Of a stretch of 64,000 nt of DNA, positions 43,495 to 62,053 are shown piece after piece. The position numbers were made by a program, and so were the translations under genes. Numbering within the stretch: position 1 is the stretch's first letter; each line of letters starts with the position of its first letter. Location: positions 1 to 64,000 of the forward strand of contig JALNLN010000007.1 in assembly GCA_023267855.1 (NCBI GenBank), read 5' to 3'. Source of the DNA: Candidatus Geocrenenecus dongiae. GTDB lineage: Archaea > Thermoproteota > Nitrososphaeria_A > Caldarchaeales > Wolframiiraptoraceae. A model generated the notes under the pieces. It ran no database searches and was not told the origin of the DNA. It saw only the letters and a list, made by a program, of their open reading frames with translations.

Positions 43495-44273
43495 CTTTTC
43501 TCCCTTCCATAAAGTTCCTGTATTCTTTCAAAGAACTTTTTAGCTATTTCAGTCTTAGGATTGTGGATAACTTCTTCAGGTGGTCCACGTTCAATTATCT
43601 TACCATCATACATAAACAACATTTCATCTCCCACAGATTGTGCAAACCCCATCTCATGTGTTACGACTATACTTGTAACTTTTTCTCTAGCAAGAGCTTT
43701 CATAACTTCAAGTACTTCTCCTATTAACTGTGGATCCAGAGCAGAGGTAGGCTCATCGTACAAAATTATCGATGGGTTCATAGCGAGCGCTCTTGCTATA
43801 GCTACTCTCTGCTTCTGTCCTCCCGATAATTCTGCAGGATATTTGTGAGCGTGTTCTTCTAAACCTACTTTTCTTAATACCTCCATAGCTCTCTTGTAGG
43901 CTTCTTCTCTTTTCATTTTCTTAACAACTTCCAGACCTATGCTAACATTCCTGAGAGCTGTTAGATGATTGAAAAGATTAAATTCTTGAAAAACGAAACC
44001 TATCTTCTGTCTAACTTTATTTATGTTGATAGATCGGGTTGTTAATTCTTCTCCTTCAAGCCAGATCATTCCTTTATCAGGTTTTGTTAAAAGATTTATA
44101 CATCTTAAGAGAGTACTCTTACCAGAACCTGAAGGTCCACATATTATCTTTGTTTCACCTCTACGAACTTCGAAGGAAATCCCCTTCAAAACAATTACAT
44201 TATTATAACTTTTGTATAGATCTTCAACTTTGAGAACGATTTCATCTTCAACCATAGACTCTACATCCTCCAT
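43491..44273 (-). CDS. Polar amino-acid ABC transporter ATPase
   Basis: ATP-binding subunit of the GlnQ/HisP type (260 aa). Walker A is CGPSGSGKSTLLRCINLL near 47, the Q-loop FVFQEFNLFNHLTALRN, the signature ELSGGQKQRVAIARALAM, Walker B ILYDEPTSALDPQ, H-loop VVTHEMGFA. The spelling of the signature and the DEPTSALDP stretch are canonical, so activity is expected. It lies between the two permease genes and overlaps both. Confidence 0.95.
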   Translation of the reverse strand: MEDVESMVEDEIVLKVEDLYKSYNNVIVLKGISFEVRRGETKIICGPSGSGKSTLLRCINLLTKPDKGMIWLEGEELTTRSININKVRQKIGFVFQEFNLFNHLTALRNVSIGLEVVKKMKREEAYKRAMEVLRKVGLEEHAHKYPAELSGGQKQRVAIARALAMNPSIILYDEPTSALDPQLIGEVLEVMKALAREKVTSIVVTHEMGFAQSVGDEMLFMYDGKIIERGPPEEVIHNPKTEIAKKFFERIQELYGREKR

Positions 44274-44923
44274 ATTAATCCAGGTATCTTCAACTTATCA
44301 TATATGGTGTTTAGTATTTTAGTTCCACTATATGTTAAAACTATGAAGAGTGCTCCTGCTATGAAGTACGGTATAAGAGGTTCTAGCGTAGCCATTACCA
44401 CGTATCTGGTTCTAGTCAAAATCTCCATAACGCCTAGCGTAAAACATATTGCTGAGTCTTTTAATATTATTGCATACTCGTTCGCCCATCCTGGTATTGA
44501 GATTCTTAAAGCCTGCGGTAGTACTATATGATATATTGCTCTCATCTTACTCATACCGAGAGTTCTAGCAGCTATGTACTGTCCTTCACCTACAGATGTA
44601 ATCGCACCACGAAATATCTGAGATTGATATGCTCCACTCCTTATACCGAGTACTAGAATACTACAGGTAAGTGGATCTAGTTTAAAACCTAGAGCTGGAA
44701 AGATGCCCCAGTAAAATAAGAAGAGTAGAACTAGTAGTGGTACGCTTCTAAAAAACCATGCATAAACTTCTACCATAATCTTTAAGAAACGATGTCCGTA
44801 GACCTGAGCTATTGCAGATGGCAAACCTACTATGAATCCTATTAATAATCCTCCACCTACAAGTCCTAGAGTCCACAGAACACCTTCAAGAATATATGGA
44901 ACATAGTCTACTACTGAAACCAT
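44261..44923 (-). CDS. Polar amino-acid ABC transporter permease (second subunit)
   Basis: A 220-residue permease like its neighbour: VLWTLGLVGGGLLIGFIVGLPS near 14, WFFRSVPLLVLLFLFYWG near 56, GAYQSQIFRGAITSVGEGQYIAARTLGM near 96 and RAIYHIVLPQALRISIPGWANE near 127. Together with the ATPase, the other permease and the substrate-binding protein encoded divergently at 45068 it makes a complete importer. First gene of the minus-strand operon; its promoter shares about 145 bases with the divergent binding-protein gene. Confidence 0.93.
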   Translation of the reverse strand: MVSVVDYVPYILEGVLWTLGLVGGGLLIGFIVGLPSAIAQVYGHRFLKIMVEVYAWFFRSVPLLVLLFLFYWGIFPALGFKLDPLTCSILVLGIRSGAYQSQIFRGAITSVGEGQYIAARTLGMSKMRAIYHIVLPQALRISIPGWANEYAIILKDSAICFTLGVMEILTRTRYVVMATLEPLIPYFIAGALFIVLTYSGTKILNTIYDKLKIPGLIWRM

Positions 44924-44991
44924 GCATCTTCAAGAAGATGAAACAGAAAGCCTACTATAAAGTTATTTCTTATTCTTAAGCCCGGAATATT

Positions 44992-45043
44992 AAAAATTAA
45001 AATTTTTCTATTTCTGATAAATATTTTCTTAAAAGTTTATCTA
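44992..45043. promoter_or_regulatory. Divergent promoter region of the amino-acid ABC transporter
   Basis: AAAAATT-AA-AATTTTT is an exact inverted repeat at 44992-45007. TTTATCTA at 45036-45043 lies 25-32 bases before the ATG at 45068 and is a probable TATA element for the binding-protein gene. The inverted repeat is pure A/T, so a specific site is uncertain. Confidence 0.4.
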
Positions 45044-45067
45044 TACGTTTTCTCTAAAATCTTAGTA

Positions 45068-45976
45068 ATGAGTAGGAAGTCAGTTAATAAAAGTTTTCAG
45101 AGTAGAAGATTTTCTAGAAGAGAAGCTGTAAGTACTGCTGCTAAAGTTGCTGGTTCTGCTGTTGCTGGATTAGTTATTGGTGGTGTAGCAGGATATGTGC
45201 TTAAACCAGCGGCTCCGGCTGAAGTAAAAACGACAACCATAGTTACTGAGAAGAAAGGAAAATTCACAGATCCACCTCCACCTGGAACAAAAATTGTAAT
45301 AATACATGGGTTTGATGCAGCCTACCCGCCTTTCACAGAAGTTACACCAACAGGTGAAGTACAGGGATTTGATATAGATGTCATAAAATGGATAGCTAAT
45401 AAGTATGGCTGGGAGGTTGTTCCAAAACCATGGGATTGGGCTACGATAATTACAGCTCTACTTAATGGAGATATAGATATTATAGCTTCAGGAATGACCC
45501 ATACAGCTGCTAGAGCAGAGAAAGTATGGTACTCGATACCCTACTACGTCTACTATCATCATCTACTAACTCTGAAAGAAGATACTAGAAGTATGGAGGA
45601 AATACTAAACTCTGGAGAATATATTTCATGCCAACTTGGAGCTACAAGTGATGAATGGGCTGAGAAACTCTTAAAACAAGGATACAAATTCAAGAAATTA
45701 GCATTAGATTCTTATGCACTCGCATTTCAAGCAGTATTGGAAGGAAGAGCCATAGCAGTAATAAGTGATAGTGCTTTTACAGAACCATACTTTAAAGAGA
45801 AGCCAGAGGTAGGACAGAGATTTAGAGAAGTTGGTAGACTAGGAGGAATAAAGACATATGCAATAGCCACCAGACCAGAAGATTATTGGTTAAGAAATAT
45901 GATAAACCATGCGCTTACAGAATTAATGGATAGCCCATTATGGAATGAACTACTAACTAAATGGAACCTAAGATAG
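45068..45976 (+). CDS. Amino-acid ABC transporter substrate-binding protein
   Basis: Family 3 solute-binding protein (302 aa). The N-terminus has SRREAVSTAAK followed by an Ala/Gly/Val-rich hydrophobic stretch (about residues 25-47), which looks like a twin-arginine (Tat) signal or an anchor; a Thr/Lys-rich linker leads into the binding domain. The core shows DAAYPPFTEVTPTGEVQGFDIDVIKWIA (in parts), NGDIDIIASGMTHTAARAEKVWYSIPYY and a second lobe with the tail MINHALTELMDSPLWNELLTKW. Divergent from the permease/ATPase operon. Probably a polar or charged amino acid; a link to glutamate or glycine catabolism is guesswork. Confidence 0.92.
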   Translation: MSRKSVNKSFQSRRFSRREAVSTAAKVAGSAVAGLVIGGVAGYVLKPAAPAEVKTTTIVTEKKGKFTDPPPPGTKIVIIHGFDAAYPPFTEVTPTGEVQGFDIDVIKWIANKYGWEVVPKPWDWATIITALLNGDIDIIASGMTHTAARAEKVWYSIPYYVYYHHLLTLKEDTRSMEEILNSGEYISCQLGATSDEWAEKLLKQGYKFKKLALDSYALAFQAVLEGRAIAVISDSAFTEPYFKEKPEVGQRFREVGRLGGIKTYAIATRPEDYWLRNMINHALTELMDSPLWNELLTKWNLR

Positions 45977-46103
45977 AACTTCCAACCTCCTCATTTTTAT
46001 TTTCGCTATTAGGATGGTATCGTCTCTAGTATATGGAACCATCTAATTTGATCTAACTGAGAAACAAAGATAAAATATGGGATTGATAAGTGTATAGGCG
46101 ACG

Positions 46104-47117
46104 ATGAGGAGTATTAAGTTTGCAGTTTATGGTTTAGGTCCTATCGGCTCTTTAATTGTTAAGTATGGCTTGGAGAGAAGCTGGATGGAGCTTGTAGCTG
46201 CCTTCGATATTGATCCCCTAAAGGTTGGAAGAGACGTAGGAGAAGTTGTAGGTTTAGATGAGAAAGTAGGTGTAATCGTTGAGAAGAATGTTAAGGAGGT
46301 TCTGGATAAGACTAGACCTGATATAGTCTTACATGCTACTGGAAGTTATCTGGATAAGATTTATACTCAGATACTTGATGCTGTGAAAGTAGGGGCAGAC
46401 ATTATTTCAACATGCGAAACCCTCTCCTACCCGTACTATAGATACCCGGAAATCTCTAAGAAGCTTGATGAAGAAGCTAAGAAGAATAGTTCAACTATTC
46501 TGGGTACAGGCATAAATCCGGGCTTCCTCCTAGATCTGCTTCCAGCAGTAATGACTACACCATGTCTTAAAGTTGAGAAGATCATAGCTAGGAGGATTAT
46601 AGATGCTTCGAAGAGGAGAGAATCGTTTAGGAAGAAGATAGGGCTTGGACTCGATAAAAAAATGTTTGATGAGAAGATTAAGAGTGGAGAGATTACAGCA
46701 CATGTAGGCTACGCTGAATCAGTATGCTTAATATCACATGCATTAAGATTAAAATTAGATTCTGTCAAAGAATATCAAGAAGCAATAATAGCAGAGAAGG
46801 AGATAGAGCTAGGCGGAATCAAGATAAATTCTGGAAAAGTTCGAGGTGTTAGAGGTTTCGGTATAGGTTTAAAGAATGGTGAAGAAATTGTAAAGATAGA
46901 GTTTACTGCAGCTGTAGGTATAGAAGAAGAGTTCGAAGAAATAATTATTGAAGGTCTCCCAAAACTTGTTTGGAGAAATCTTAACGGAACGCCCGGAGAT
47001 ACAGCCACAGTAGCTGTAGTCTTAAATTATGTACCAGTAGTCTTAGAATCAGAACCAGGTCTCAAGATAATCACACAATTAAAACCTCCATCATATTGTA
47101 CTTACTTCGAACAATAA
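46104..47117 (+). CDS. 2,4-diaminopentanoate dehydrogenase-like / DapB-fold oxidoreductase
   Basis: A 337-residue NAD(P)-dependent dehydrogenase. The Rossmann loop is FAVYGLGPIGSLIVKYG near 6-22, followed by AAFDIDPLKVGRDVGEVVG; further marks are VLHATGSYLDKI, ISTCETLSYPYY and TGINPGFLLDLLPAVMT near 143. These fit the DapB-like group that includes 2,4-diaminopentanoate dehydrogenase of oxidative ornithine fermentation. I cannot verify the substrate, and no other ornithine-pathway gene is adjacent. It lies between the amino-acid ABC transporter and glutamate dehydrogenase. Confidence 0.8.
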   Translation: MRSIKFAVYGLGPIGSLIVKYGLERSWMELVAAFDIDPLKVGRDVGEVVGLDEKVGVIVEKNVKEVLDKTRPDIVLHATGSYLDKIYTQILDAVKVGADIISTCETLSYPYYRYPEISKKLDEEAKKNSSTILGTGINPGFLLDLLPAVMTTPCLKVEKIIARRIIDASKRRESFRKKIGLGLDKKMFDEKIKSGEITAHVGYAESVCLISHALRLKLDSVKEYQEAIIAEKEIELGGIKINSGKVRGVRGFGIGLKNGEEIVKIEFTAAVGIEEEFEEIIIEGLPKLVWRNLNGTPGDTATVAVVLNYVPVVLESEPGLKIITQLKPPSYCTYFEQ

Positions 47118-47351: not shown

Positions 47352-48632
47352 TTATCTGCATGGATGTGATTTTTCAGATTCTGTTTCAGACATTAGTGTG
47401 TATTCGTATTCTTCTTCTCTCGCATATGCTTCTGTTGCTATATCTATTGCTCCTGCTCTTAGTAGCATGGCTTTTCTAACTCTGTTCTTAGCTATCTCTA
47501 AGGCTATTTCACGTGGCCACTTACCTGTCTCAAATGTTTTCATTAAGACTTGGCGTACATTGCTAGTGATTTTATAGTGTATGTAGTCGAATGCTTGTTT
47601 TACTGTGCCTCCAATGTATTCGATGTATGATCCGATAACTCCACCTGCATTAACTAGAAAATCTGGCATAACCCAGACACCGTTCTCTTTAAGAATCTTC
47701 TCTGCAGTTGGGGTAGTCGGTATATTTGCAGCTTCAATAACTAGTTTAACACCAGAATCTATCAAATGCTTAACGGTTTCTTCATTTATCGTGAAGGAGC
47801 CGGCTGCAGGTATAAAGATATCTGCAGGTATATGGTATATCTTATCTCTTGGCTCTTTACTGTAACCTTCGAGGTCTACGAGTTCAGGGTACTTTACTTT
47901 TCTTCTCAGATTCCTCAACTCTTTCATCATTTTAGGTATGTCAAGCCCTTTCTCATCATATATGCATGCAGAAATATCGTTTATAGCAACTATCTTGTAA
48001 CCCATCTCATCTAGGAACTTAGCTGTATAGCTTCCAACATTCCCAAATCCTTGTATAGCTATCCTAACATTTTTCGGATCTATTTTGAGAACATTGAATT
48101 TTGTCAAAAGTTTCAAAGTCGTGTCTAATGCTATTGCAACACCATACCCTGTTGTTCCAAGTTCATGTGGTATCCCACCTAGCTCGAGAGGCTTACCAGT
48201 ACATGCTTTCATATCTCCAATCTCGTGTGCAAATACAGCCATATCCATCTCATTCGTTCCCATATCTGTTGCAGCTACATATTGTAAAGGTACGTATGGT
48301 TTTATTGCTTTAGCATAAGCTTTGATCCAAGCAACTCTATCAACTTTTGTTGGATCTCCAATGATGCCGCCTTTTGCACCACCGAAAGGTAGACCTGCGA
48401 GAGCACATTTCCAAGTCATAGCTCTAGCCAGCAAGAATACTTCATAAGGAGTTACATTTGGCTGGAATCTTATACCTCCCTTCCCAGGACCCATAGCTGT
48501 ATTATCGATTACGAGGATGCCACGCATCTTTACGTCTGGATCGTATGTTAAGATTATCTTTTCCGGACCCCATTCATCTGCTACACTCCAAAAATCTTGA
48601 GTTTCAAGTTTAATCATAGATGTGTGACTCAT
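47352..48632 (-). CDS. gdhA: Glutamate dehydrogenase
   Basis: Glu/Leu/Phe/Val dehydrogenase family (426 aa), most like NAD(P)-dependent glutamate dehydrogenase. Marks: GILVIDNTAMGPGKGGIRFQP near 38, MTWKCALAGLPFGGAKGGI near 72 with the catalytic Lys, AATDMGTNEMDMAVFA, ELGTTGYGVAIALD, and the NAD loop IAIQGFGNVGSYTAKFLDEMGYKI near 193. The C-terminus has a tail of about 30 residues (YAREEEYEYTLMSETE) that is longer than in many archaeal GDHs. It lies 84 bases after the gltB FMN-domain gene on the same strand, so it may be the last gene of the large Hdr/GltS unit. Confidence 0.94.
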   Translation of the reverse strand: MSHTSMIKLETQDFWSVADEWGPEKIILTYDPDVKMRGILVIDNTAMGPGKGGIRFQPNVTPYEVFLLARAMTWKCALAGLPFGGAKGGIIGDPTKVDRVAWIKAYAKAIKPYVPLQYVAATDMGTNEMDMAVFAHEIGDMKACTGKPLELGGIPHELGTTGYGVAIALDTTLKLLTKFNVLKIDPKNVRIAIQGFGNVGSYTAKFLDEMGYKIVAINDISACIYDEKGLDIPKMMKELRNLRRKVKYPELVDLEGYSKEPRDKIYHIPADIFIPAAGSFTINEETVKHLIDSGVKLVIEAANIPTTPTAEKILKENGVWVMPDFLVNAGGVIGSYIEYIGGTVKQAFDYIHYKITSNVRQVLMKTFETGKWPREIALEIAKNRVRKAMLLRAGAIDIATEAYAREEEYEYTLMSETESEKSHPCR

Positions 48633-48716: not shown

Positions 48717-50234
48717 TTAGTAGCCTATTAATTTTACACCTGTGATTGTTGCAACATTAATGTTTAGAGCTCTTAGATCTTCTTTTGATAATTCTCTAAT
48801 ATCATTATGACCTGAAAGCATGGTCAACATCTTGACTTCTTCTGTCATTGCTTTAAGGAAGTTTACTAATCTGTCAGCTGCTTTTTCAGGTTGGAGTCTT
48901 CTTCTTAGTTCTGGGTCTTGTGACGTGATACCGTAGGGACATTTACCTTTCAAACACTGTGTACATACTCTGCATCCCATAGCTATTAAAGCTGCGGAGG
49001 CTATTGCTACACAATCCGCTCCTAGTGCTATAGCTTTTACAACGTCTGCTCCATTGCGTATCCCACCCATAACTATTAATTTAACTTCTCCACGTAATCC
49101 TACATCTTCTAGTGCTTTAACTGCAGGCGGTATGCATCCTATTGTTGGGATTCCCGCATGCTGGATAGATATCTCTGGAGATGTTCCCGTACCTCCTTGT
49201 GAACCATCAATTGCAATTGCATCTGCACCTGCTTTCGCCGCTATCTCTACATCTTTGTAAACTCTTCCAGGTCCAAGTTTAACTATTATTGGTTTTTCGT
49301 AATTGGTTATGTTTCTCAGTAGGTCGATCTGTTTCTTTAGATCTTTCTCTACATCTTGTATATCGTAATGTCTAGCTGGCGATAGACAATCTGTGCCTAC
49401 AGGTATACCTCTTATCTTAGCTATTTCTTCTGTAACCTTCTCTCCGAGTAGATGTCCACCCATGCCTGGTTTCGCTCCCTGACCTATCTTAATCTCAACA
49501 GCATCTGATCTCTCTAGATAATCTATTGAAACTCCCCATCTACCACTAGCCCACTGTACTATCAGATATCCTCCAGGTTCATACGTCTTCCTACCACTCT
49601 TAAATTCTTCTTCATTCTTAAAGCCGTGTGCTAGATAGTATTCTTCAGGGAAAGATCCACCCTCACCTGTACACACTGCTGTCCCAAGTCTTGCAGTCGC
49701 TATAGCTAGAGCTATCTTAGCTTCTCTCGAGATTGCACCATAAGACATCGCTGCAAATATTATGGGTATCTTAAGCTTCAGAGGTTTATCAACTCTCCCT
49801 TCTCCAATCACAACCTCTACATTACATTCTTCTCTATACTTATCTTTAGGTTCAGGTGGGTAGAGTTGGGCTGGAACTACGACTAGATCATCGAAGTGTG
49901 GTAGTGAACGCATCGCACCGTACCCTCTCAGAATATACTTACCTGTTTGAGCTTTGTAATGTATTTCATCTACTGTCTGGAATGTCCATAATCCTTTTGT
50001 AAATGTTTCAGGCTCAGCAGGTCTGATATGGATCACATTGTTTGGACAGTATTCTATGCAGATTCTACATCCTACACATGCTAGATCATTCATAACGTAT
50101 GCTCTACCTACTTCATCTACAGCGAAGACAGAGTTTGGGCAAACTTCTACACATGTTGAACATTTCCAAGGCATCTTCCAGCTAATACATCTTTCTTTAT
50201 CCATTGTAACACAAAATGCACCTGAGATAGGCAT
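48717..50234 (-). CDS. Glutamate synthase FMN domain with N-terminal ferredoxin (archaeal GltB domain 2)
   Basis: A 505-residue FMN/iron-sulfur protein of the archaeal split glutamate synthase. Residues 20-75 hold two [4Fe-4S] motifs (CSTCVEVCPNS, CVGCRICIEYCPNN). The FMN-binding TIM barrel follows: PIIFAAMSYGAISREAKIALA near 157, GTAVCTGEGGSFPEEY, IKIGQGAKPGMGGHL near 254, IVKLGPGRVYKDVEIAAKAGADAIAIDGSQGGTG (in parts), GGIRNGADVVKAIALGAD, and the [3Fe-4S] loop MGCRVCTQCLKGKCP near 420-433. It would reduce 2-oxoglutarate imine to glutamate if ammonia is supplied. It is six bases after the GXGXG-domain gene. Confidence 0.93.
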   Translation of the reverse strand: MPISGAFCVTMDKERCISWKMPWKCSTCVEVCPNSVFAVDEVGRAYVMNDLACVGCRICIEYCPNNVIHIRPAEPETFTKGLWTFQTVDEIHYKAQTGKYILRGYGAMRSLPHFDDLVVVPAQLYPPEPKDKYREECNVEVVIGEGRVDKPLKLKIPIIFAAMSYGAISREAKIALAIATARLGTAVCTGEGGSFPEEYYLAHGFKNEEEFKSGRKTYEPGGYLIVQWASGRWGVSIDYLERSDAVEIKIGQGAKPGMGGHLLGEKVTEEIAKIRGIPVGTDCLSPARHYDIQDVEKDLKKQIDLLRNITNYEKPIIVKLGPGRVYKDVEIAAKAGADAIAIDGSQGGTGTSPEISIQHAGIPTIGCIPPAVKALEDVGLRGEVKLIVMGGIRNGADVVKAIALGADCVAIASAALIAMGCRVCTQCLKGKCPYGITSQDPELRRRLQPEKAADRLVNFLKAMTEEVKMLTMLSGHNDIRELSKEDLRALNINVATITGVKLIGY

Positions 50235-50240
50235 GTTTAC

Positions 50241-50918
50241 TCACCTCCCGTAGAATGGTCTAAGTGATATAGGAGTAAGCTTCTTCATATTTCTAGGATC
50301 AGCATCTACTCTAAAAGCATCAAAGTAGTTCTTTAATCTCCTTATGTCTTCGGTTCCGATAGGTGTTTCTTTACAATTGTGGCCCAGACTCTTGTATTTC
50401 CCATCTATGAATATGTTGCCACGTATGATCCAGTCTCCAACTTTCTCACCTACGTCTCCTAAAATTATGATTTCACCTCCAACCATATATGTTCCTACAT
50501 TATCTCCACAATCTCCTGTTACTATGATTACTGCACCTTTGTTTAAAGCTCCTAAGAAGTCTCCAGAATCTCCATCTACGAATATTATTCCTCCGTAACA
50601 ATATACTCCACAACCATATCCTACATCTCCATTCACAATTACAACACCCTTAGTCATATTATCTGCTAAGAATCTTCCCGCATCTCCATTTATTGTTATT
50701 GATGCACCATCATTCAAAGCCGCCGTATAGTCTCCCGTATCACTATTCACTATTATATTTCCTTGTTTTAATCCAGATGCGAGACCGTGGAGATGGGAAG
50801 CATTATCTATCAAGATTTTGGATGCACCATTCTGTAATGCTTTCCTAATTTCAGAATTCACAAATCTTAAATCTTTATTACTTGCATCTATCCTATACTC
50901 CACGTTCTTCACCTCCAA
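50241..50918 (-). CDS. Glutamate synthase GXGXG domain protein (archaeal GltB domain 3)
   Basis: A 225-residue right-handed beta-helix protein with the repeated GxGxG-type pattern: INGDAGRFLADNMTKG, VNGDVGYGCGVYCYGGIIFVDGDSGDFLGALNKGA (read in parts), VTGDCGDNVGTYMVGGEIIILGDVG and IDGKYKSLGHNC near the end. In full-length GltB this domain is structural and holds the ammonia tunnel and FMN-domain arrangement in place. Archaea often encode it as its own gene next to the FMN domain, as here. It overlaps the frhB-like gene by 10 bases. The glutaminase domain (GltB domain 1) is not encoded in the operon or elsewhere in the window. Confidence 0.93.
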   Translation of the reverse strand: MEVKNVEYRIDASNKDLRFVNSEIRKALQNGASKILIDNASHLHGLASGLKQGNIIVNSDTGDYTAALNDGASITINGDAGRFLADNMTKGVVIVNGDVGYGCGVYCYGGIIFVDGDSGDFLGALNKGAVIIVTGDCGDNVGTYMVGGEIIILGDVGEKVGDWIIRGNIFIDGKYKSLGHNCKETPIGTEDIRRLKNYFDAFRVDADPRNMKKLTPISLRPFYGR

Positions 50919-52018
50919 GCTATCTTTAACTTCTCTCTAACTTCATCTCTACTCTTTTTACCGAGTAGGCTTTCTAGCATAAGTGATGTTAGAGAATCTA
51001 TTTCTTGTGCACGTTTTCTCCTCTCCTTATCTATAACAAGCTTCTGTATTTCTTCTAAGCTGATGGATGTTTCTGAAGGTTTCAGAGTTTTTTCCATGAA
51101 AGCGTATTTTAGACTTCTCTCCCCTAAAGGTGTTCTCACGATGACCATAGTTCCTTTTTCTTCTAAACCTATTGTTCCAACAGATATGTCTGCGCACTCA
51201 GCTGTAAAATCTGTACAACGTGCACATCCCTGCTTCATGTATCTTCGTATTTCTGGTAGTGGGATACCCTTCATCAACCCTTCCTGCATAACGATTCTAA
51301 GAACCTTATTCTTAATGTCCATTATCAACCTATTTAGTTCATATGGATTAATATCAAATCTATCCACAATCTCTTGTACTAGTTGTTGAGTATATGCTCC
51401 TTCGCAGAAAACCCCTATCATCAAGTATATTGAGTTTTTGTAAACTTTGAGTTTATTGTTATTAGATGTACGTATGGCTTTTACTGCTTGTGCTATACAT
51501 GGGGGGCCGACCACTGCTATCTTCTTTAATCCCTTCTTATATATTGCATCATTTAAAACCTCTAAGATGGGATGCCATAGATACTGGTATCCGCTCGTAG
51601 TTAGTATTTCTTCTTCTCTTGTAACTATCTTTGGTATTGGTTTGAATGTTTCCCTATCTATATCCCATGTAACTGCTCCATCTACTAGTTTTCTTCTTAT
51701 CGAAGCTATTAGGAGAGCATTCACAATACTGGTATCTGGAAGTCTTGAAGTTACTGTAACTGTATGTAGTATTTGTCCTTTCTCCCATTCTCTTAGTCTA
51801 GGACAACTATCTTCACAAGGTTTTTCACAAAAGAAGCATGTATCTACAACTATGTGTGATGATCCTATACGTTTCTCTCTAACTTCTAGTTCAGGATGAT
51901 CTCCATCTCTTGGAGATCTTAGAATATTCTTTGAACAAGTTGATATACATGCACCACATTCACAACATCTACCAACGTACCATACATCTTTCTTTAATCT
52001 ATAAACCATGTTCCTCAC
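50909..52018 (-). CDS. FrhB/FpoF-type flavoprotein (coenzyme F420 oxidoreductase beta-like)
   Basis: A 369-residue FrhB-family FAD/iron-sulfur protein. The N-terminus has Cys-rich motifs RCCECGACISTCSKN (residues 17-31) and CFFCEKPCEDSCP (61-73). The FrhB core has ITTSGYQYLW-like DKL variants, KIAVVGPPCIAQAVKAIR near 178, LMIGVFCEG near 209 and the GCARCTDFTAECADISVGTIG motif near 258-278, which carries iron-sulfur ligands. Homologues move electrons between F420H2 (or in some cases ferredoxin/thioredoxin) and a partner. Here it lies between hdrB and the GltS genes (overlaps of 20 and 10 bases), so it is the natural bridge between the Hdr module and glutamate synthase. Confidence 0.9.
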   Translation of the reverse strand: MRNMVYRLKKDVWYVGRCCECGACISTCSKNILRSPRDGDHPELEVREKRIGSSHIVVDTCFFCEKPCEDSCPRLREWEKGQILHTVTVTSRLPDTSIVNALLIASIRRKLVDGAVTWDIDRETFKPIPKIVTREEEILTTSGYQYLWHPILEVLNDAIYKKGLKKIAVVGPPCIAQAVKAIRTSNNNKLKVYKNSIYLMIGVFCEGAYTQQLVQEIVDRFDINPYELNRLIMDIKNKVLRIVMQEGLMKGIPLPEIRRYMKQGCARCTDFTAECADISVGTIGLEEKGTMVIVRTPLGERSLKYAFMEKTLKPSETSISLEEIQKLVIDKERRKRAQEIDSLTSLMLESLLGKKSRDEVREKLKIAWR

Positions 52019-52901
52019 CCCAAATAGTTTTCAAAGTTTCTAAGAATTTATCTATACCAGTCTTGTTGAGGTGTAGACCTACTTCTTCAGGTTTAAGCCC
52101 TATGGAGAGTCCGAGAAGCTGTGGATAAAGGATTACGGGTATATCGTATCTTTCTCCACTAATCCTAGAAGCTTCATTCTGCATAAAGTCGAATTGGAGT
52201 TGGCATGAAGGACATATAACTACAATACAATCAGCTTCAGAATCTTTAGCACTTTTCAATTTCGCACATGTTAATGACAGGCTTAAATCTCTATCTATAG
52301 CAAGTATTGGAGAACCACAGCACCATAGTTTTAACATCCAGTATATACTTTTAGCTTCAGTAACTTCTATCAATTCATCGAGGATTTTGGGATTCTCAGG
52401 ATTATCAGACTTTAATTTATTTGAGGGTCTCAAGATGTGGCAACCGTAATGTGCAGCAACTCTTAAACCTTTTAGAGAACGTTTTATCTTACCCCTAATA
52501 TTCTTAAGTCCAAGATCTTCGTAAAGAACATGTATGAGATGCTTAACTTCCACTTCTCCACTATATGTAAGACCATCTAACTTCTTCAATATCGTGTTGA
52601 CTTCTTCTTTAAAACTAGTATTGTTATGGAATGTTTCCTGAGCTTCTTTAAGAGATTCGTAACATCCTGGGCAGGTGACAAGTAAGTTTAGATTCTTATT
52701 CTCTGCTAATGCGAGTATTCTTGTACTCATTACTAGATTTGTTTTAGCGTCTACTGAACGTGTAATTACTGTACCACAGCATCCTGCATCTTCTAGATCT
52801 ACAAGTTCTACTCCAAGTTCTTTTAGTACATTTCGTACTGCTAGATCATATTGATTTAATCTTGAAGGTACCACACATCCCATATAGTATGCATACCTCA
52901 T
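51999..52901 (-). CDS. hdrB: HdrB-type subunit with two CCG domains
   Basis: A 300-residue heterodisulfide reductase B-like protein. The first CCG domain has Cys9, AGCCGTVITR at 39-48 and LVTCPGCYESL near 74-84. The second has HYGCHIL near 148, LWCCGSPILAID near 204 and VICPSCQLQFDF near 241-252. These Cys-rich motifs bind the noncubane [4Fe-4S] clusters that reduce disulfides in methanogen HdrB. A true heterodisulfide is not expected outside methanogens; a thiol or another acceptor may be used. It overlaps hdrC by 4 bases and frhB by 20 bases. Confidence 0.93.
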   Translation of the reverse strand: MRYAYYMGCVVPSRLNQYDLAVRNVLKELGVELVDLEDAGCCGTVITRSVDAKTNLVMSTRILALAENKNLNLLVTCPGCYESLKEAQETFHNNTSFKEEVNTILKKLDGLTYSGEVEVKHLIHVLYEDLGLKNIRGKIKRSLKGLRVAAHYGCHILRPSNKLKSDNPENPKILDELIEVTEAKSIYWMLKLWCCGSPILAIDRDLSLSLTCAKLKSAKDSEADCIVVICPSCQLQFDFMQNEASRISGERYDIPVILYPQLLGLSIGLKPEEVGLHLNKTGIDKFLETLKTIWGEEHGL

Positions 52902-53422
52902 TTCACAGTACCTCCAATAATCTTTAAGAATCCTACTTCTTCCAGCATCTTCCTAATCTTCTCAGCATCTACTGGAGGTGCTTTCGGAAGCCCGAGTTTC
53001 TCCCTCTCTTTTTCTCGTCCAGCACTGATTTTAATAATTCTACCATCTTTAACTATATTCATACAGATCTCTACCAACTCTCTCGGTACATATCCAAGTT
53101 TTGATGCAGTATTTCTTAAAGTGAAGAGTATGTTCGCTGGATCAACTTCCTGAGGGCATCTCTCAGAACATGTGAAACAAGTTGTACACAACCATATTTC
53201 TCTAGAACTTATCAATTGTTCTACTAAACCTAGATTGACCATCTTGACTATTCTGTGAGGTTTGATTATGTATCCTAGAGGGCATCCAGAGGTACATATT
53301 CCACACTGAACGCATTTAGATGGATCACCGCTCACTATATTGTTTAGAATTTCAGATCTCAGAGCCGGATCCATTTTAATATTTTTTAGAGAGATTGTTT
53401 GTACACTCATTTCTACATACAC
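52898..53422 (-). CDS. hdrC: HdrC-type iron-sulfur subunit
   Basis: A 174-residue ferredoxin-like subunit. Two [4Fe-4S] motifs are present: CVQCGICTSGCP (Cys37, 40, 43, 47) and CTTCFTCSERCPQEVD (Cys79, 82, 85, 89). The helical remainder ends KLGLPKAPPVDAEKIRKMLEEVG, as HdrC proteins do. It passes electrons from HdrA to HdrB. It overlaps hdrA by 10 bases and hdrB by 4 bases. The lack of membrane helices sets it apart from QmoC and HdrE. Confidence 0.93.
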   Translation of the reverse strand: MYVEMSVQTISLKNIKMDPALRSEILNNIVSGDPSKCVQCGICTSGCPLGYIIKPHRIVKMVNLGLVEQLISSREIWLCTTCFTCSERCPQEVDPANILFTLRNTASKLGYVPRELVEICMNIVKDGRIIKISAGREKEREKLGLPKAPPVDAEKIRKMLEEVGFLKIIGGTVK

Positions 53423-56400
53423 CTCCTCAAGGGGTTGTAACCAACCTCTTCAATCTTATGTGTAAATTCCTTGATGATCTTACTTAACCTAAATCCTTCA
53501 CCTGCTGAAGCCCATTCTATCCTAACCCTTTCCGGATTCAAGCCTAATGCACCAATTAATTCTCTGAGTCTAGTTACTCTATCTTCTGCTCTAAGATTTC
53601 CTGAAAGATAGTGGCAGTCTCCTGGATGACATCCAACAATAAGTATACCATCAGCACCTAGAAGTAGAGCGTATAGTATGTAGAGGGGGTCAACTCTAGC
53701 ACTACACATTACTCTAATTATCTCTACTGTTGGGGGATACTCGTAGCGGCTTATCCCAGCCATGTCTGCAGCAGCGTAACCACACCAATTACAGAAGAAA
53801 GCTATTATCTTCGGCCTATCTTTAGGAGATGGTTTTCTGAAAGCTGCTTCTATCATAGCTAGTAATTGGTCATTTCTAAATTGGTGTACTGTTATTGCTT
53901 TCGAGGGGCACTCAACGGCACATGAGCCACATCCTTTGCATAGAAATGGATTAATCTTCGCTACCAAGATATTCTCAGGTCTAGTTTCTAGCTGGATAGC
54001 TTTGAATTCACATACATTTAAGCATCTTCCACAACCTGTACAGGTTAGTGGGTTGACTTCAGCGACGATAGGTTCTGTAACAATCTTACCATGCATGAGT
54101 AATGTTAATGCACGTGAAGCTGAAGCTAATCCTTGAAATATATTCTCCTCTAATCTTTGAGGACCGTAAGCCAGTCCACATAGATAAATCCCATTAACTG
54201 AGAAATCTACAGGTCTAAGTTTTGGATGAGCTTCTATAAAGAATCCATAACTATTTAGTGGAACTTTCAATCTAGAAGAAATTTCATGGTTTTCTAATGA
54301 AGGTAGGATAGGTGTAGCCAAGACTATTGTATTGACAGGTATTTCAAACACAACGTTTAGTGTGGTATCATAGGTGTTTAAGAAAAGCTCGCCATCTTTA
54401 CTGTAGACTTCTGGCGGTCTACTTAAAGAATATCTTAGAAAGTGTATTCCTGATTTACGTGCTTCCCGATAAATCTTCTCCCCATTAACTGGTAGCCTCA
54501 TATCTCTGTATAGAACATAGACATTGGACTCTGGATTCTTACGTTTAAAGTTAAGTGCTTCTAAGAGTACTTCTTCGCAACATATAGCAGAACAGTACAT
54601 ACGTCCCTCTATCTCTCTAGCACCAGTACATAAGATGAAAGCTATGTTCCCACCACCAGCACCATTAAGCTTCTTCCTGAATTCTGTTAAAGTGTAGATT
54701 CTATTATCTTCTCCATAACCATAAATTCTCAGTGGTTTAAATTCTCCTCCACCTGAAGCTACAATTATTGTTCCAACATTAATCTCTTTGATTAAACCAT
54801 TCTTACTTAGTTTAATGTTGAAAGCCCCGGCAGATCCTTTAACATCTTCTACCTTTGTTGATAAATGTATTTCCACGTTATCATGTTGTTTAAGAGATTT
54901 GATAATGTTTAGAACCCACTCTGCAACTCTACCGTCATGTTTATAGAATTCGAGATCACTTCCAAGATTTTCCCCCCGCTCAACAACATACACTTTAAAA
55001 CCATTATCAGCTATAGTTTTAGCGGCCACTAACCCACTGACTGTCCCACCAATTATAAGTGTAGATGGAGTAACAGGTGTTTCTGCTCTCTCTAATGGTT
55101 CAAGAAGTCTAGCTTTCGCAATAGCCATTTCAATAAGTTCTCTTGCTTTCTCGGTTGCTTCGTGAGGATATTTTCTATGAACCCAAGAAACATGTTCTCT
55201 AATATTCACCATCTCGAATAGGTATGGGTTCAGGCCTGCCTCCTCACAAACATCTCTAAACAATTTTTCATGAGTACTTGGAGTACATGAAGCTACTACA
55301 ACCCTATTTATTCTATACTTCTTGATAGCTTCCTTAATACGTTCTGTCCCATCCTTAGAACATGCAAACATTAAATCTTCACAGTAAACAACGTCTGGAA
55401 TTCTTGAAACATCTTCCACCACCTTCTTAACATCTACAACAGCAGCTATATTCAATCCACAGTGACATACGAATACCCCTATTCTAGGTTCTTGAACAAC
55501 CTCACCAACCCATATACTACTCCTAGCTTCACTTTTCTGTACCGGCATTTCTACATATTTCTTTAAACTTAAGATTCTCTCTGCTGCTTTAACGGAAGCT
55601 GCCAGAGCTTGCATTACACTATGAGAGATGTCTTTAGGGTTTTGGCACGCTCCACAAACATACACTCCAGGAACATTAGTATCAATAGATGTAATATCTG
55701 TAGATTTGAAGAATCCATGATCATCTAACTCTAAACCAATTATCTTAGCAAGTTTTAGAGAGTCTTCTCGTGGGACTACTGCTGGGCAAAGTACAACTAG
55801 ATCAACTTCTACTGTTTTTACTTCTTCAGAAGATAAGTCAACGTATCTTATAATCAACTTATTCGTCTTCTCATCCCACATAACTTCGCTTGGTAAACTC
55901 TTAACATATTTGATGCCGAATTCCTCAACAGCTCTTCTTATAAGTTCTTCATGACCTTTACCAACAGCATTCAAATCATTATAGAACACTATCACATCTA
56001 TTCTTGGATCATGTTCTTTTGTAACTATAGCTTGTTTCGTAGCATACATACAACATATCTGTGAACAGTAATCTTTCAGCTTCTTATTTCTCGACCCCAC
56101 ACACTGAATTATTGCAATTTTTTCAGGGCTCTTCTTGTCTGAAGGCCTAATGATTTCTCCTCCTGTAGGTCCAGCAGCATTCATGAGACGCTCATACTGT
56201 ATTGATGTTAAGACGTTTGGAAATCTACCGTAGCCATACTGTGGAAGAATAGTTGGATCTAGGAGGGAGAATCCTGTGGCCACGATTATAGAGTATACAT
56301 CCAGATCAACTTCTTCTATTTTTTGTTCAAAATTGATGGCGCCTGAGGGGCAGATTTTTTCACATACTCTACATACACCTTTCGTAAAGTATAGGCAGTG

Positions 56401-56856
56401 TTCTTGATCTATAACTGCGATCTTTGGAACAGCTTGGGGGAAAGGTATGTAGATTGCTTTTCTAAAACCTATGCTTTCTTCAAATTCGCTTGGAACCTTA
56501 ACAGGACACTTCTCCTCACATCTACGACATCCCGTACATTTTACTTCATCTACATATCTTGGCTTCCTAATGATCTTCACATTAAATCTCGATCCATCTT
56601 GAGAACGCTGTACTTCTTTTACCTCCGAATATGTGAATAGATTTATATTAGGATGTCTGGAAACTTCAACCATTTTTGGTCCAAGAATACATATGGAACA
56701 ATCGAGCGTAGGGAAAGTTTTATCAAGCTTAGCCATGTAACCTCCTATCGAAGGTTCTTTCTCAACTAGATACACTTTAAATCCTTTATCTGCAAGTTCT
56801 AAAGATGCTGTGATACCAGCTACACCACCGCCAATTACGAGAACATCACCTTCCAA
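53413..56856 (-). CDS. hdrA: HdrA double-flavin fusion with MvhD-type C-terminus
   Basis: A 1147-residue flavoprotein, roughly twice a normal HdrA. Residues 1-435 form an HdrA/QmoA-like FAD module: VLVIGGGVAGITASLELA, LDKTFPTLDCSICILGPKM, [4Fe-4S] motifs CTGCRRCEEKCPVKVP (107-122) and CRVCEKICPSG (162-172). From 458 follows the HdrA N-terminal domain (VFVCHCGLNI, SCTPSTHEKLF, NIREHVSWVH), then a second FAD fold from about 599 (IIGGTVSGLVAAKTIA, with GGTVSG in place of GGGVAG). Two [4Fe-4S] motifs (CTGCGRCLNVCE, CKGCGSCAVECP) are near 950-1010, and an MvhD/FlpD domain (FFCNWCGYAAADMAG) ends the chain. QmoA and QmoB fused would have this order. It starts with TTG behind GGAGGTGA and opens the operon. 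Confidence 0.92.
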   Translation of the reverse strand: MEGDVLVIGGGVAGITASLELADKGFKVYLVEKEPSIGGYMAKLDKTFPTLDCSICILGPKMVEVSRHPNINLFTYSEVKEVQRSQDGSRFNVKIIRKPRYVDEVKCTGCRRCEEKCPVKVPSEFEESIGFRKAIYIPFPQAVPKIAVIDQEHCLYFTKGVCRVCEKICPSGAINFEQKIEEVDLDVYSIIVATGFSLLDPTILPQYGYGRFPNVLTSIQYERLMNAAGPTGGEIIRPSDKKSPEKIAIIQCVGSRNKKLKDYCSQICCMYATKQAIVTKEHDPRIDVIVFYNDLNAVGKGHEELIRRAVEEFGIKYVKSLPSEVMWDEKTNKLIIRYVDLSSEEVKTVEVDLVVLCPAVVPREDSLKLAKIIGLELDDHGFFKSTDITSIDTNVPGVYVCGACQNPKDISHSVMQALAASVKAAERILSLKKYVEMPVQKSEARSSIWVGEVVQEPRIGVFVCHCGLNIAAVVDVKKVVEDVSRIPDVVYCEDLMFACSKDGTERIKEAIKKYRINRVVVASCTPSTHEKLFRDVCEEAGLNPYLFEMVNIREHVSWVHRKYPHEATEKARELIEMAIAKARLLEPLERAETPVTPSTLIIGGTVSGLVAAKTIADNGFKVYVVERGENLGSDLEFYKHDGRVAEWVLNIIKSLKQHDNVEIHLSTKVEDVKGSAGAFNIKLSKNGLIKEINVGTIIVASGGGEFKPLRIYGYGEDNRIYTLTEFRKKLNGAGGGNIAFILCTGAREIEGRMYCSAICCEEVLLEALNFKRKNPESNVYVLYRDMRLPVNGEKIYREARKSGIHFLRYSLSRPPEVYSKDGELFLNTYDTTLNVVFEIPVNTIVLATPILPSLENHEISSRLKVPLNSYGFFIEAHPKLRPVDFSVNGIYLCGLAYGPQRLEENIFQGLASASRALTLLMHGKIVTEPIVAEVNPLTCTGCGRCLNVCEFKAIQLETRPENILVAKINPFLCKGCGSCAVECPSKAITVHQFRNDQLLAMIEAAFRKPSPKDRPKIIAFFCNWCGYAAADMAGISRYEYPPTVEIIRVMCSARVDPLYILYALLLGADGILIVGCHPGDCHYLSGNLRAEDRVTRLRELIGALGLNPERVRIEWASAGEGFRLSKIIKEFTHKIEEVGYNPLRRCM

Positions 56857-56865
56857 AAACTAAAC

Positions 56866-56873
56866 TCACCTCC
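56866..56873 (-). promoter_or_regulatory. Strong ribosome binding site for the hdrA operon
   Basis: GGAGGTGA on the minus strand lies nine bases before the TTG at 56856 and supports this uncommon start. The 270 bases between here and the RPA gene (57128) must hold the operon's promoter; they are AT-rich and I do not see one clear box. Confidence 0.65.
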
Positions 56874-59411: not shown

Positions 59412-61496
59412 TTACAGTGGTTGTATTAGTTCGAGTACGTGTTTTACTGGTAGATGTTTCGAGAGGTTGCTGAATTGTATGTAGCATGCTGTACATTCTG
59501 TTACTATCATTTCTCCTCTAAGCTTCTCGTACATGTCTAGAGTCCATTTACCGATCTCTATACCAATATCGTATCCATGACCATTCTTCTTCATCCCCCA
59601 GGTACCTGCCAAACCACAGCAACCAGCATTCCTAAACATGACGTTAGCATTAAGTTTTTCAATAAAATCTATTACAGGTATGGATCCGTTCTCCATTAAT
59701 GTGTGACATGGTTTATGATAAATCAAACTCATGTTGTCAAGTTTCTTAACAATATTCTCTAATTCACTCCATCCAATAGTTTTCAGTAGACTATAAAAGG
59801 TATACGTATTCTCGGAGACTTTTATTGATTCACGTGTTTGTAGAATTTTCGGATAATATCTTGAAATACAGAGGTAAGATGTAGGTTCAAGGGTAACTAC
59901 TTTGTACCCTCTATCTACAAGTTTATACAAACTACTTACATTATATAACGCTACTTCTCTTGCCTCATTTATGAAACCATTTTGAATGAGAGGCATCCCG
60001 CTACTCTTCTGTTTGGGTAGAATTATCTTGAATCCCAGTTTAGATAAGATATCAACTGCTTTGAGAGCGAGTTCAGGTAGAAAGTAGTATAGCATAGAGT
60101 CTGTAAATAATGCTATCTTCCCCCTCTCACCTCCACCTATTTCTTTAAATATTTCTCCAAGACTTTTAGAAGAAAATCTTGGTAAAGAGATTCTTCTATC
60201 TATTCCAACGTATTCTTCAATAAGCTTCTTGAATAATCTTTGATTCATTATAGTGTTTGAGAATGATGGTAGCTTGCTTCCAAGATCTATTAACTTCTCA
60301 TATCTCTTTATCTTTCTATTTATGCTAGGATAACCATAGGCTTCACCATACATTTTCTTTACAAGTATGTTGAGGTATGGTAGATCAATATCTACGGGGC
60401 ATTCTTCTTTACATAATCCACATATGTTACATAGTTGAGCGAATTCCGTATTTTTCAAGCCATGTGTTATCATAGTCCAAGGTATACCCATGGGGCCACT
60501 GTATATGTATCCAAAGACGTGGCCGCCCAGCATATTGTATGGGGGGCAGACCTCGAGGCATGAAGCACATCTTATACAGTATAATGCTTCTCTAAAATCT
60601 TCATCTCTTCTAGCATTCATTCTACCATTATCTATTAGTATGTAGATTGTTTTACGAATCTTTTTCATACCGTCTTTAGGATATGCAAGAGAGGAGGGAA
60701 CGTTAAACGATACATAAGAACTTAAACGTTGCCCCGTGGCCTTCCTACAAAGTACTTTCAAAATTCTTAGTGCATCTTTGGTTGATGGTACAATTTTCTC
60801 TACGCCAGCTATAACAACATGTATGGGAGCGAATGCTAATGATAATCTATCGTTTCCCTCATTTGTTACCAGTACTATAGCGCCGTTCTCCGCTATAATG
60901 AGATTTGCTCCAGTAATTACCATATCTGCTCTTTGATACTTTTCTCTAAACTCTCTCCTAACTTCTAGAACTATTTCTCTAGGATCTGGTAGAATTTTTC
61001 TTCCATAATATTTGGAGAGTATCTCAGCTACCTCATACCTCGTCATGTGGAGTGCTGGTCCTAAAATGTGTGAAGGCTTCTGTCCCGCAAGCTGTATTAG
61101 TCTTTCTCCAAGATCCGTTTCGATAACTTCTATTCCTTCAGATTCCAGAAACTTATTTAATTCTATTTCTTCCGTAGTTAAAGACTTCGATTTAACGATA
61201 AGCTTAACGTTATTCTCTTTACATATCTTGATAACGATCTTGGATGCTTCAACTCCGTCTCTAGCTATGTATAATTCTGCTCCTTTTTCTTCTAGTACTC
61301 TCTTTAATCTTTCAATATTCTCTTCAAGTTCTTGGATTGCTTTCTCTCTAATACTTCTAACGTTCCTTAAATCTTCCATGCTTATCTCTGGAAGAACTTT
61401 TTCTTTTCTCTCCTTCTTCCTAAGACTACTCTGTAAGATAGGCCACTTCCCTCTAAATGATGAAAGTTTTTCTAAAACTCTCTCTTCCAGCTTCAT
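59412..61496 (-). CDS. LutB-like LUD/ferredoxin protein fused to HdrD/LutA-type CCG domains
   Basis: A 694-residue iron-sulfur protein. Residues 40-290 form a LUD (DUF162) domain as in LutB/YkgF: SKSLTTEEIELNKFLESEGIEVIETDLGE (in parts), ADMVITGANLIIAENGAIVLVTNEGNDRL (in parts) and HVVIAGVEKIVPS. Two [4Fe-4S] motifs follow: CIRCASCLEVCPP (Cys307-317) and CNICGLCKEECPVD (Cys356-366). The C-terminal third has CCG-type motifs (YHKPCHTLM, NAGCCGLAGTWGM, VTECTACYIQF). In bacteria LutA, LutB and LutC oxidise L-lactate; here A-like and B-like parts are joined. It overlaps the lutC-like gene by 4 bases. It is probably an L-lactate or other 2-hydroxyacid dehydrogenase component. Confidence 0.88.
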   Translation of the reverse strand: MKLEERVLEKLSSFRGKWPILQSSLRKKERKEKVLPEISMEDLRNVRSIREKAIQELEENIERLKRVLEEKGAELYIARDGVEASKIVIKICKENNVKLIVKSKSLTTEEIELNKFLESEGIEVIETDLGERLIQLAGQKPSHILGPALHMTRYEVAEILSKYYGRKILPDPREIVLEVRREFREKYQRADMVITGANLIIAENGAIVLVTNEGNDRLSLAFAPIHVVIAGVEKIVPSTKDALRILKVLCRKATGQRLSSYVSFNVPSSLAYPKDGMKKIRKTIYILIDNGRMNARRDEDFREALYCIRCASCLEVCPPYNMLGGHVFGYIYSGPMGIPWTMITHGLKNTEFAQLCNICGLCKEECPVDIDLPYLNILVKKMYGEAYGYPSINRKIKRYEKLIDLGSKLPSFSNTIMNQRLFKKLIEEYVGIDRRISLPRFSSKSLGEIFKEIGGGERGKIALFTDSMLYYFLPELALKAVDILSKLGFKIILPKQKSSGMPLIQNGFINEAREVALYNVSSLYKLVDRGYKVVTLEPTSYLCISRYYPKILQTRESIKVSENTYTFYSLLKTIGWSELENIVKKLDNMSLIYHKPCHTLMENGSIPVIDFIEKLNANVMFRNAGCCGLAGTWGMKKNGHGYDIGIEIGKWTLDMYEKLRGEMIVTECTACYIQFSNLSKHLPVKHVLELIQPL

Positions 61497-62053
61497 CTAG
61501 CCTCCTCCAGTACGAATACATAGAGTACTCTAGGACCGTGTACACCTCTAATTATCTCACCTTCAATATCTGCAGTACTACTTGAACCTGTAATTAGTAA
61601 TAATGATTCTCCTCTCTCCAAAATATTTTCTACAGATAGTTTTTCAAGATCTTCTAGATCATATATGATTCTATCCTTAGAGATTATTGAAATATGTTTT
61701 TCAGGGAAATATAATGAAACTTCTTCTATACTGGAAGAAGCTTTATACACCAGTGTACCTGTATTTGCTAAACCATACTCTGGGAAGCCTATCGAGAGTT
61801 CTATATCTGAGAAAGGTTCTAGAAGATCTGGAACCATGATCCTGAACTTCAACCCATCTTTAAGCATTTTCTTAATTAGTTCTCTACGATAATCTGTACC
61901 GTTTCCAACGATAGGTATAGGTGTCTCCACGTTCTCAACCAAACCTTTAAGATTATCATACAACTCGTCTACGTTTTTACATAAATGTGTGTCTACATCT
62001 ATTTCTCTTAATCTTGTTACAAAAAGTTTTAAGAAATCTCTATTCTCTAACAA
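61493..62053 (-). CDS. LutC-like LUD-domain protein
   Basis: A 186-residue LUD-domain protein, first gene of the two-gene operon with the LutB-like fusion. Visible are the middle DIELSIGFPEYGLANTGTLVYKASS (in parts), PEKHISIISKDRII and the end LLITGSSSTADIEGEIIRGVHGPRVLYVFVL (in parts), as in LutC/YkgG. Function goes with LutB, in oxidation of L-lactate or a related hydroxyacid. It overlaps the next gene by 4 bases. Confidence 0.87.
   Translation of the reverse strand: MLENRDFLKLFVTRLREIDVDTHLCKNVDELYDNLKGLVENVETPIPIVGNGTDYRRELIKKMLKDGLKFRIMVPDLLEPFSDIELSIGFPEYGLANTGTLVYKASSSIEEVSLYFPEKHISIISKDRIIYDLEDLEKLSVENILERGESLLLITGSSSTADIEGEIIRGVHGPRVLYVFVLEEAR

Follow-up and report, generated by a model that had tools for sequence, protein, structure and literature searches.

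A fused HdrA-HdrA-MvhD protein with one conserved and one apparently eroded flavin site, encoded beside F420- and glutamate-synthase-like genes in Candidatus Geocrenenecus dongiae

The window analysed here comprises 64,000 nucleotides (positions 1 to 64,000 of contig JALNLN010000007.1, assembly GCA_023267855.1) from the archaeon Candidatus Geocrenenecus dongiae, and contains on the minus strand, at 53413-56856, a gene for a protein in which two flavin modules of the heterodisulfide-reductase (Hdr) subunit HdrA are fused to a C-terminal MvhD domain. This protein probably functions as an asymmetric HdrA made of a single chain, in which one flavin-adenine dinucleotide (FAD) works and bifurcates electrons, within an Hdr complex that is linked to coenzyme F420 and to glutamate. 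The layout as such is not new, since type II HdrA ending in MvhD is widespread in Asgard and TACK archaea; what sets this protein apart is the eroded second flavin site, as read from the sequence, together with the operon tie to glutamate-synthase-like genes, a combination of Hdr and glutamate synthase in one cluster for which we found no description in the openly licensed literature. That tie is a more unusual feature than the fusion, and this tie and the pattern of one flavin are the parts that merit further attention. The dimers of HdrA pose the question of whether both flavins are needed, and a subfamily with one conserved and one eroded site in each chain would constitute a natural one-flavin experiment.

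Domain architecture

The open reading frame of 1147 residues is real, and the coordinates given in a preliminary description of this DNA, which had left the strand unstated, were exact; translation starts at a TTG codon at 56856, separated by a 9-nt spacer from a strong ribosome-binding site (GGAGGTGA, 56866-56873, minus strand, as are all the features below). For the domain assignment the PDB was searched with phmmer (query numbering starting at residue 2; E-values down to 1e-197), and Pfam was also run. Module 1 (residues 1-430; 55567-56856) has the HdrA flavin fold with an inserted two-cluster ferredoxin, residues ~5-382 matching positions 146-517 of the methanogen HdrA 5odc_A and the module extending to ~430. 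The HdrA N-terminal Fe-S (CHCG) domain follows at residues 455-595 (55072-55494), with the invariant cysteines 464, 466, 499 and 524, the match to 5odc_A 2-151 spanning residues 455-604. Module 2 (residues 596-925; 54082-55071) is a second flavin fold, devoid of the inserted ferredoxin; residues 872-1008 correspond to the end of the thioredoxin-reductase fold plus the C-terminal ferredoxins (residues 929-1007; 53836-54072; two [4Fe-4S] motifs). The chain ends in MvhD (residues 1013-1147; 53416-53820), which domain was recognized by phmmer (1014-1141), Pfam, and Foldseek alike. The cysteine motifs of the chain predict seven [4Fe-4S] clusters and a single [2Fe-2S] cluster.

An AlphaFold2 model built on the alignment of 16 fused homologs reached a mean predicted local distance difference test score (pLDDT) of 82.9 and a predicted template-modelling score of 0.82, the pLDDT falling below 50 only at the linker 433-454 and at residues 750-753. 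With that model Foldseek matched module 1 to the HdrA chain 8rwn_A at a TM-score of 0.96 over 428 residues, and whole-HdrA chains at 0.74-0.78 of the target. The earlier proposal that a single chain combines MvhD with two flavin modules of the HdrA/Qmo type was thus borne out by phmmer, AlphaFold2, and Foldseek; and two thioredoxin-reductase-type flavin domains of the HdrA kind in one chain are what has been named type II HdrA (PMC12054007). The NCBIfam model NF040770 (HdrA2) scored 1164.6 against a cut-off of 1100, but this score is reached only when three shuffled stretches are added together, and we discarded the HdrA2 identity as an artefact; the automatic name would for that reason mask the double module.

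The two flavin sites

Site numbers below follow the HdrA of M. thermolithotrophicus, in which protein E356 and K409 are the bifurcation residues (PMC12054007) and Cys197 of one subunit of the dimer is a ligand of the N-terminal cluster of the other (PMC9012536). Module 1 retains the equivalents of Cys197 (C56; 56689-56691), E356 (E222) and K409 (K274) along with the eight cysteines of the inserted ferredoxin, so that, when taken together with the CHCG domain, it presents the full set of sequence features of a bifurcating HdrA: the E356/K409 FAD site, the inserted ferredoxin, the N-terminal cluster domain, and Cys197. Module 2 has none of Cys197, the inserted ferredoxin, E356 and K409. In this module arginine (R727; 54676-54678) stands in place of E356 and leucine (L765; 54562-54564) in place of K409, the middle glycine of the GxGxxG motif has become Thr605 (G152T) in the sequence GGTVSG (residues 603-608; 55033-55050), and G180 is replaced by serine; what persists are the cluster cysteines 743, 755, 759 and 760 (386, 399, 403 and 404 in M. 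thermolithotrophicus). E356 plus K409 in both modules, a pattern that is typical of type II HdrA but does not define it, is thus seen here in module 1 but not in module 2. The preliminary description was right about GGTVSG, about the positions of the cysteines, which lie at 107-117, 154-169, 464/466, 939-983 and, in MvhD, 1022-1081 (to which list we add C56), and in its suspicion that the second flavin site might be changed or lost, given that E356, K409, and the middle glycine are all substituted.

Comparison of 45 fused homologs revealed the same asymmetry. In module 1 Cys56, Lys274, and the middle glycine are present in 45/45, and Glu222 throughout except for aspartate in four, whereas module 2 varies freely at the matching sites. 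The middle glycine of module 2 is lost in only five of those proteins, namely that of the window, L009 (Baldrarchaeota), L010 (Culexmicrobium), L164 (from a second genome of the phylum of Baldrarchaeota), and L100 (a paralog in the genome G279); and these are, among the loci whose surroundings were read, exactly the ones with linked FrhB and GltB2 genes. Since the five form one clade, with weak to modest support (90/77), the coincidence represents a single evolutionary event and not a repeated correlation. Throughout the subclade of the window protein, module 2 has neither E356 nor K409. This module is, moreover, the fastest-changing segment of the protein: compared with the orthologs from Asgard archaea and Culexarchaea its identity is 57%, whereas module 1, the CHCG domain, and MvhD reach 77-81%, and in the module tree described below it has a terminal branch of 0.45 versus 0.14. 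On these sequence data FAD binding and bifurcation in module 2 appear unlikely.

An alternative that we hold to be possible, though unlikely, is that module 2 binds FAD as an ordinary electron-relay flavin that does not bifurcate. Its fold, the strand-2 glutamate, and the C-terminal flavin motif are indeed retained, and the close homologs L095-L097, which are not linked to the glutamate-synthase-like genes, keep GGG even though E356 and K409 are missing. A threonine or serine at the middle glycine is, nonetheless, expected to crowd the pyrophosphate, and no other segment of the chain changes as fast as this one.

With respect to the cysteines, the two halves would complement one another in the manner of heterodimer partners, module 1 contributing Cys197 and the module 2 side the N-terminal cluster domain. 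Two Thermodesulfatator homologs (L107 and L113, one a fused and one a single HdrA) have an in-frame TGA precisely at the Cys197 position (NDCSA*IL and NDCSI*IL), which codon probably denotes selenocysteine; that exact placement supports the role of C56 as a metal ligand.

The operon and its genomic setting

The HdrA gene is followed directly by those of HdrC (52898-53422) and HdrB (51999-52901), the latter with both CCG motifs intact (C9, C41, C42, C77, C80; and C154, C194, C195, C230, C233). Next come an FrhB/FpoF-type F420 oxidoreductase subunit with N-terminal ferredoxin motifs (50909-52018), a GXGXG protein with the fold of the glutamate synthase C-terminal domain and FwdC (50241-50918), and a GltB2-like flavin-mononucleotide (FMN) synthase domain (48717-50234), which protein has two N-terminal [4Fe-4S] motifs and retains the FMN core of glutamate synthase as well as the 3Fe-4S cysteines C421, C427, and C432. 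The frames from HdrA to GXGXG overlap, and 6 nt separate GXGXG from GltB2. No membrane subunit QmoC was found at the locus, its place being taken by the soluble HdrC and HdrB, as the preliminary description had anticipated; the F420- and glutamate-synthase-like genes farther downstream had escaped it, as had the earlier report and the commonness of the layout.

The order HdrA-C-B-FrhB-GXGXG-GltB2 is common to four genomes (those of the window, L009, L010, and L164), among which HdrC identity falls to 43%; the 53%-identical, diverged paralog cluster L100 contains the same gene set with GXGXG moved to the front, and a neighboring gene there, of 252 amino acids, had no Pfam match. The FrhB-family subunit adjoins the GltB2 and GXGXG proteins as in F420-dependent glutamate synthase, and the class-II glutaminase domain GATase_2 (PF00310), which in such an enzyme supplies the ammonia, was not found in the window's genome (G000), G062, or G063, although the same search was positive in 12 of 14 control genomes. 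Within the class of the window's organism an ortholog occurs in this genome only, out of 44, therefore suggesting horizontal transfer, or loss elsewhere. The six-gene block suggests that, in Asgard and TACK archaea that are not methanogens, Hdr-type energy coupling is tied to glutamate metabolism.

We judge it improbable that the glutamate-synthase-like genes are mere neighbors, with HdrABC working as it does in relatives that do not have them. Many fused HdrA loci possess HdrC and HdrB but no Glt genes; against this stand the overlapping frames, the conservation of the six-gene order despite the divergence of HdrC, and the retention of the gene set, in altered order, by the paralog cluster.

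Beyond GltB2, at a distance of 84 nt, lies a gene for a protein of the glutamate dehydrogenase family (Gdh; 47352-48632), which is absent from the conserved six-gene block in the other genomes. It is followed, at 43491-47117, by an amino-acid-type ABC transporter (family-3 binding protein, permease, and ATPase) and a 2,4-diaminopentanoate-dehydrogenase-like gene scoring 264 bits versus a cut-off of 400. By their annotation these genes and Gdh point to amino-acid metabolism near the operon, and the region 43491-47117 is a possible ornithine- or amino-acid-fermentation island. On the other side of the HdrA gene, at 59412-62053, the window contains a LutB/LdhH-like LUD protein with a CCG domain along with a second LUD-domain gene, both resembling lactate-oxidation proteins.

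Proposed electron route

From the sequence features, the predicted fold, the phylogeny, and the gene order, which are our direct results, we infer the pairing within the chain, the electron route, its direction, and the substrates. One chain, covalent and asymmetric, would take the place that a dimer of HdrA occupies in HdrABC complexes. C56 of module 1 would complete the N-terminal cluster of the following domain; and because module 1 gives that cysteine and the following domain the rest, a single chain could build its own pseudo-dimer interface. Module 1 is the sole site keeping the residues for flavin-based bifurcation, while module 2, its fold and [4Fe-4S] cluster kept, would serve as a scaffold and relay from which bifurcation has probably been lost, and FAD possibly so. 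MvhD would constitute the mid-potential port of entry or exit, exchanging electrons most likely with the FrhB-like F420 subunit. From the FAD of module 1, one electron would travel by way of the inserted ferredoxin to ferredoxin, and the second to HdrC and HdrB, HdrB then reducing a disulfide; or else the whole route might run in reverse. In this subfamily the FrhB-GXGXG-GltB2 unit would contribute a half reaction in which glutamate/2-oxoglutarate serves, through GltB2, as an additional acceptor or donor, the whole then being an Hdr-F420-glutamate complex.

A more far-reaching proposal, which we advance as doubtful, is that this soluble complex couples glutamate/2-oxoglutarate plus ammonia, with no glutamine involved, to F420 and ferredoxin by bifurcation or confurcation, its HdrA being a covalent pseudo-dimer in which only one FAD works, and that the decay of the second site accompanied the recruitment of the glutamate module.

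Several observations weigh against our interpretation. The loss of the middle glycine, E356, and K409 does not prove the loss of FAD or of bifurcation in module 2, which module retains an acidic residue at the end of strand 2 and a GIYLCG motif. The study of type II HdrA reports no biochemistry for that type (PMC12054007). The gene cofE of F420 biosynthesis, just outside the window (G000:C13:73855-74608), contains an in-frame stop and two frame changes, this disruption weakening F420 as the in-vivo carrier in the organism of the window; F420 may be limited there, or the sequence may contain an assembly error, cofE being intact in G062, G063, and G422. Finally, mcrA was not found in the four genomes searched; the disulfide of HdrB is therefore probably not the methanogenic one, and we disfavor the methanogenic heterodisulfide as its substrate.

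Two bifurcation events per chain, with both flavins at work, have been proposed for type II HdrA from methane archaea and also for the HdrA homolog of benzoyl-CoA reductase, in whose complex two bifurcation sites have been postulated (PMC9430772); 75% of the type II sequences keep both E356 and K409 (PMC12054007), and module 2 of some fused homologs has the glutamate and the lysine as well. For the protein of the window this arrangement is, however, very unlikely, inasmuch as E356, K409, the middle glycine, and G180 of module 2 are all replaced, the first two in the entire subclade.

Descent of the two halves

The preliminary description had likened the first half to QmoA and the second to QmoB. 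To place the halves, modules were excised from fused and unfused proteins as well as from Qmo, the last with QmoA/QmoB pairs adjoining qmoC among them, and a tree was obtained of 67 flavin modules from which the inserted-ferredoxin columns had been removed, the hypotheses being compared by the approximately unbiased (AU) test. The N-halves grouped with unfused single-module genes (support 97/96), the C-halves with their unfused partners (100/99), and the authentic QmoA and QmoB from qmoC-linked loci formed a third, separate clade (100/99). The N- and C-halves consequently fall into two separate old clades, as do those of type II HdrA.

A fusion of true QmoA with true QmoB, in which the halves would descend from the Qmo complex of sulfate reducers, accounts for the shared domain order, the division of Cys197, the fact that QmoB and the C-half have alike lost the inserted ferredoxin, and the MvhD that ends QmoB; the separate Qmo clade and the rejection of the groupings of N-halves with QmoA (AU p=0.0037) and of C-halves with QmoB (p=0.0065) nevertheless render it highly improbable, with the caveat that the long QmoB branch might exert some pull on those rejections. 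Of the former assignment, the domain order and the distribution of Cys197 stand, but the descent does not: in light of the tree, the halves are like QmoA and QmoB in layout only. A recent tandem duplication of one HdrA in this lineage, the result that the preliminary description had named as speaking against it, can be dismissed, for though HdrA-type modules make up both halves, each half clusters with its counterparts in homologs from other phyla and the sisterhood of the window's halves is rejected at p=4e-7. The AU test does not reject an origin of both sides in one very old duplication of HdrA (p=0.26).

Unfused module pairs belong to both half-clades, as exemplified by L101, L098, and a set in the window's own genome, so that the pairing of the two module types is broader than the fusion. 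In L101 (L101:5810-11494; G178:C5) the pair precedes genes with a DHODB-type Fe-S domain and a GltD-type NAD(P)H flavoprotein, an Nfn-like arrangement that, from its gene content, would be a further case in which this HdrA pair has changed partners. L098, along with L181, L182, and L183, represents Asgard and TACK genomes in which several HdrA genes, fused and unfused, stand next to one another in arrays, MvhD being a gene of its own in some of them. The set in the window's genome (G000:C25:17125-24870; L104:4126-11870) consists of a QmoC-like gene, a QmoA-like single module, an HdrA-like partner with no Cys197, and MvhD. The QmoC-like gene combines HdrC with a membrane part and scores below the QmoC cut-off, and the set continues with VhuG- and VhuA-like [NiFe]-hydrogenase subunits and a maturation protease, possibly specifying a membrane-anchored, Qmo-like hydrogenase complex.

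The same genome encodes a second fused HdrA-HdrA-MvhD (G000:C19:48067-57015; L102:4068-13016), 41-43% identical, whose module 2 has an intact GGGVAG and K409. It is flanked by 2-oxoacid:ferredoxin oxidoreductase genes, an HdrD-like gene, and EtfAB, with similar neighbors in other genomes of the order.

Comparison with known systems

Duplicated HdrA domains fused to a C-terminal MvhD have been reported as widespread (cluster 77) in Lokiarchaeota, Thorarchaeota, and the TACK phyla (PMC11237513), and the overall architecture of the window protein is that of those fusions; the parts of that report available to us do not treat the halves, the active-site residues, or the operon partners separately. 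A homolog at E<=1e-285 is present in 102 of 228 genomes of the phylum of Baldrarchaeota.

As in type II HdrA (PMC12054007) and in HdrA3/HdrA4 (PMC9012536), there are two thioredoxin-reductase-type modules per chain, with Cys197 and the N-terminal domain in complementary halves, which fused pairs have each been proposed to be their own heterodimer partner (PMC9012536). The half order given there for HdrA3/HdrA4 is opposite to that in the window protein, but since PMC9012536 and PMC12054007 describe the order differently, we dropped the reversal as a novelty. With the type II HdrA of methane- and alkane-metabolizing archaea the window protein shares halves from two distinct HdrA classes and the frequent proximity of HdrBC, MvhD, and an F420 subunit; it differs in the fused C-terminal MvhD, in a module 2 that is devoid of the bifurcation residues and the middle glycine, in having GXGXG and GltB2 instead of Molybdop as partners, and in that no mcrA was found.

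The FrhB-family subunit beside a GltB-type FMN protein recalls FrhB10 (PMC9012536), but here the FrhB/GltB unit is joined to HdrABC, and GATase_2 was not found in the genome. The domain layout is also that of QmoABC, in which authentic QmoA from Desulfobacterota has Cys197 and QmoB does not, and the C-half resembles QmoB in missing the inserted ferredoxin and ending in MvhD; Qmo, however, lies in a separate clade and comprises two chains plus the membrane subunit QmoC, and QmoB, unlike module 2 of the window protein, keeps E356/K409 and GGG. Finally, all the domains of the window protein are homologous to HdrA or MvhD parts of the methanogen HdrA (5odc, 8rvu, 7bkb) and of HdrA2-MvhD, but these proteins have one flavin module per chain and assemble as a symmetric dimer, or as a heterotrimer in the instance of HdrA2B2C2.

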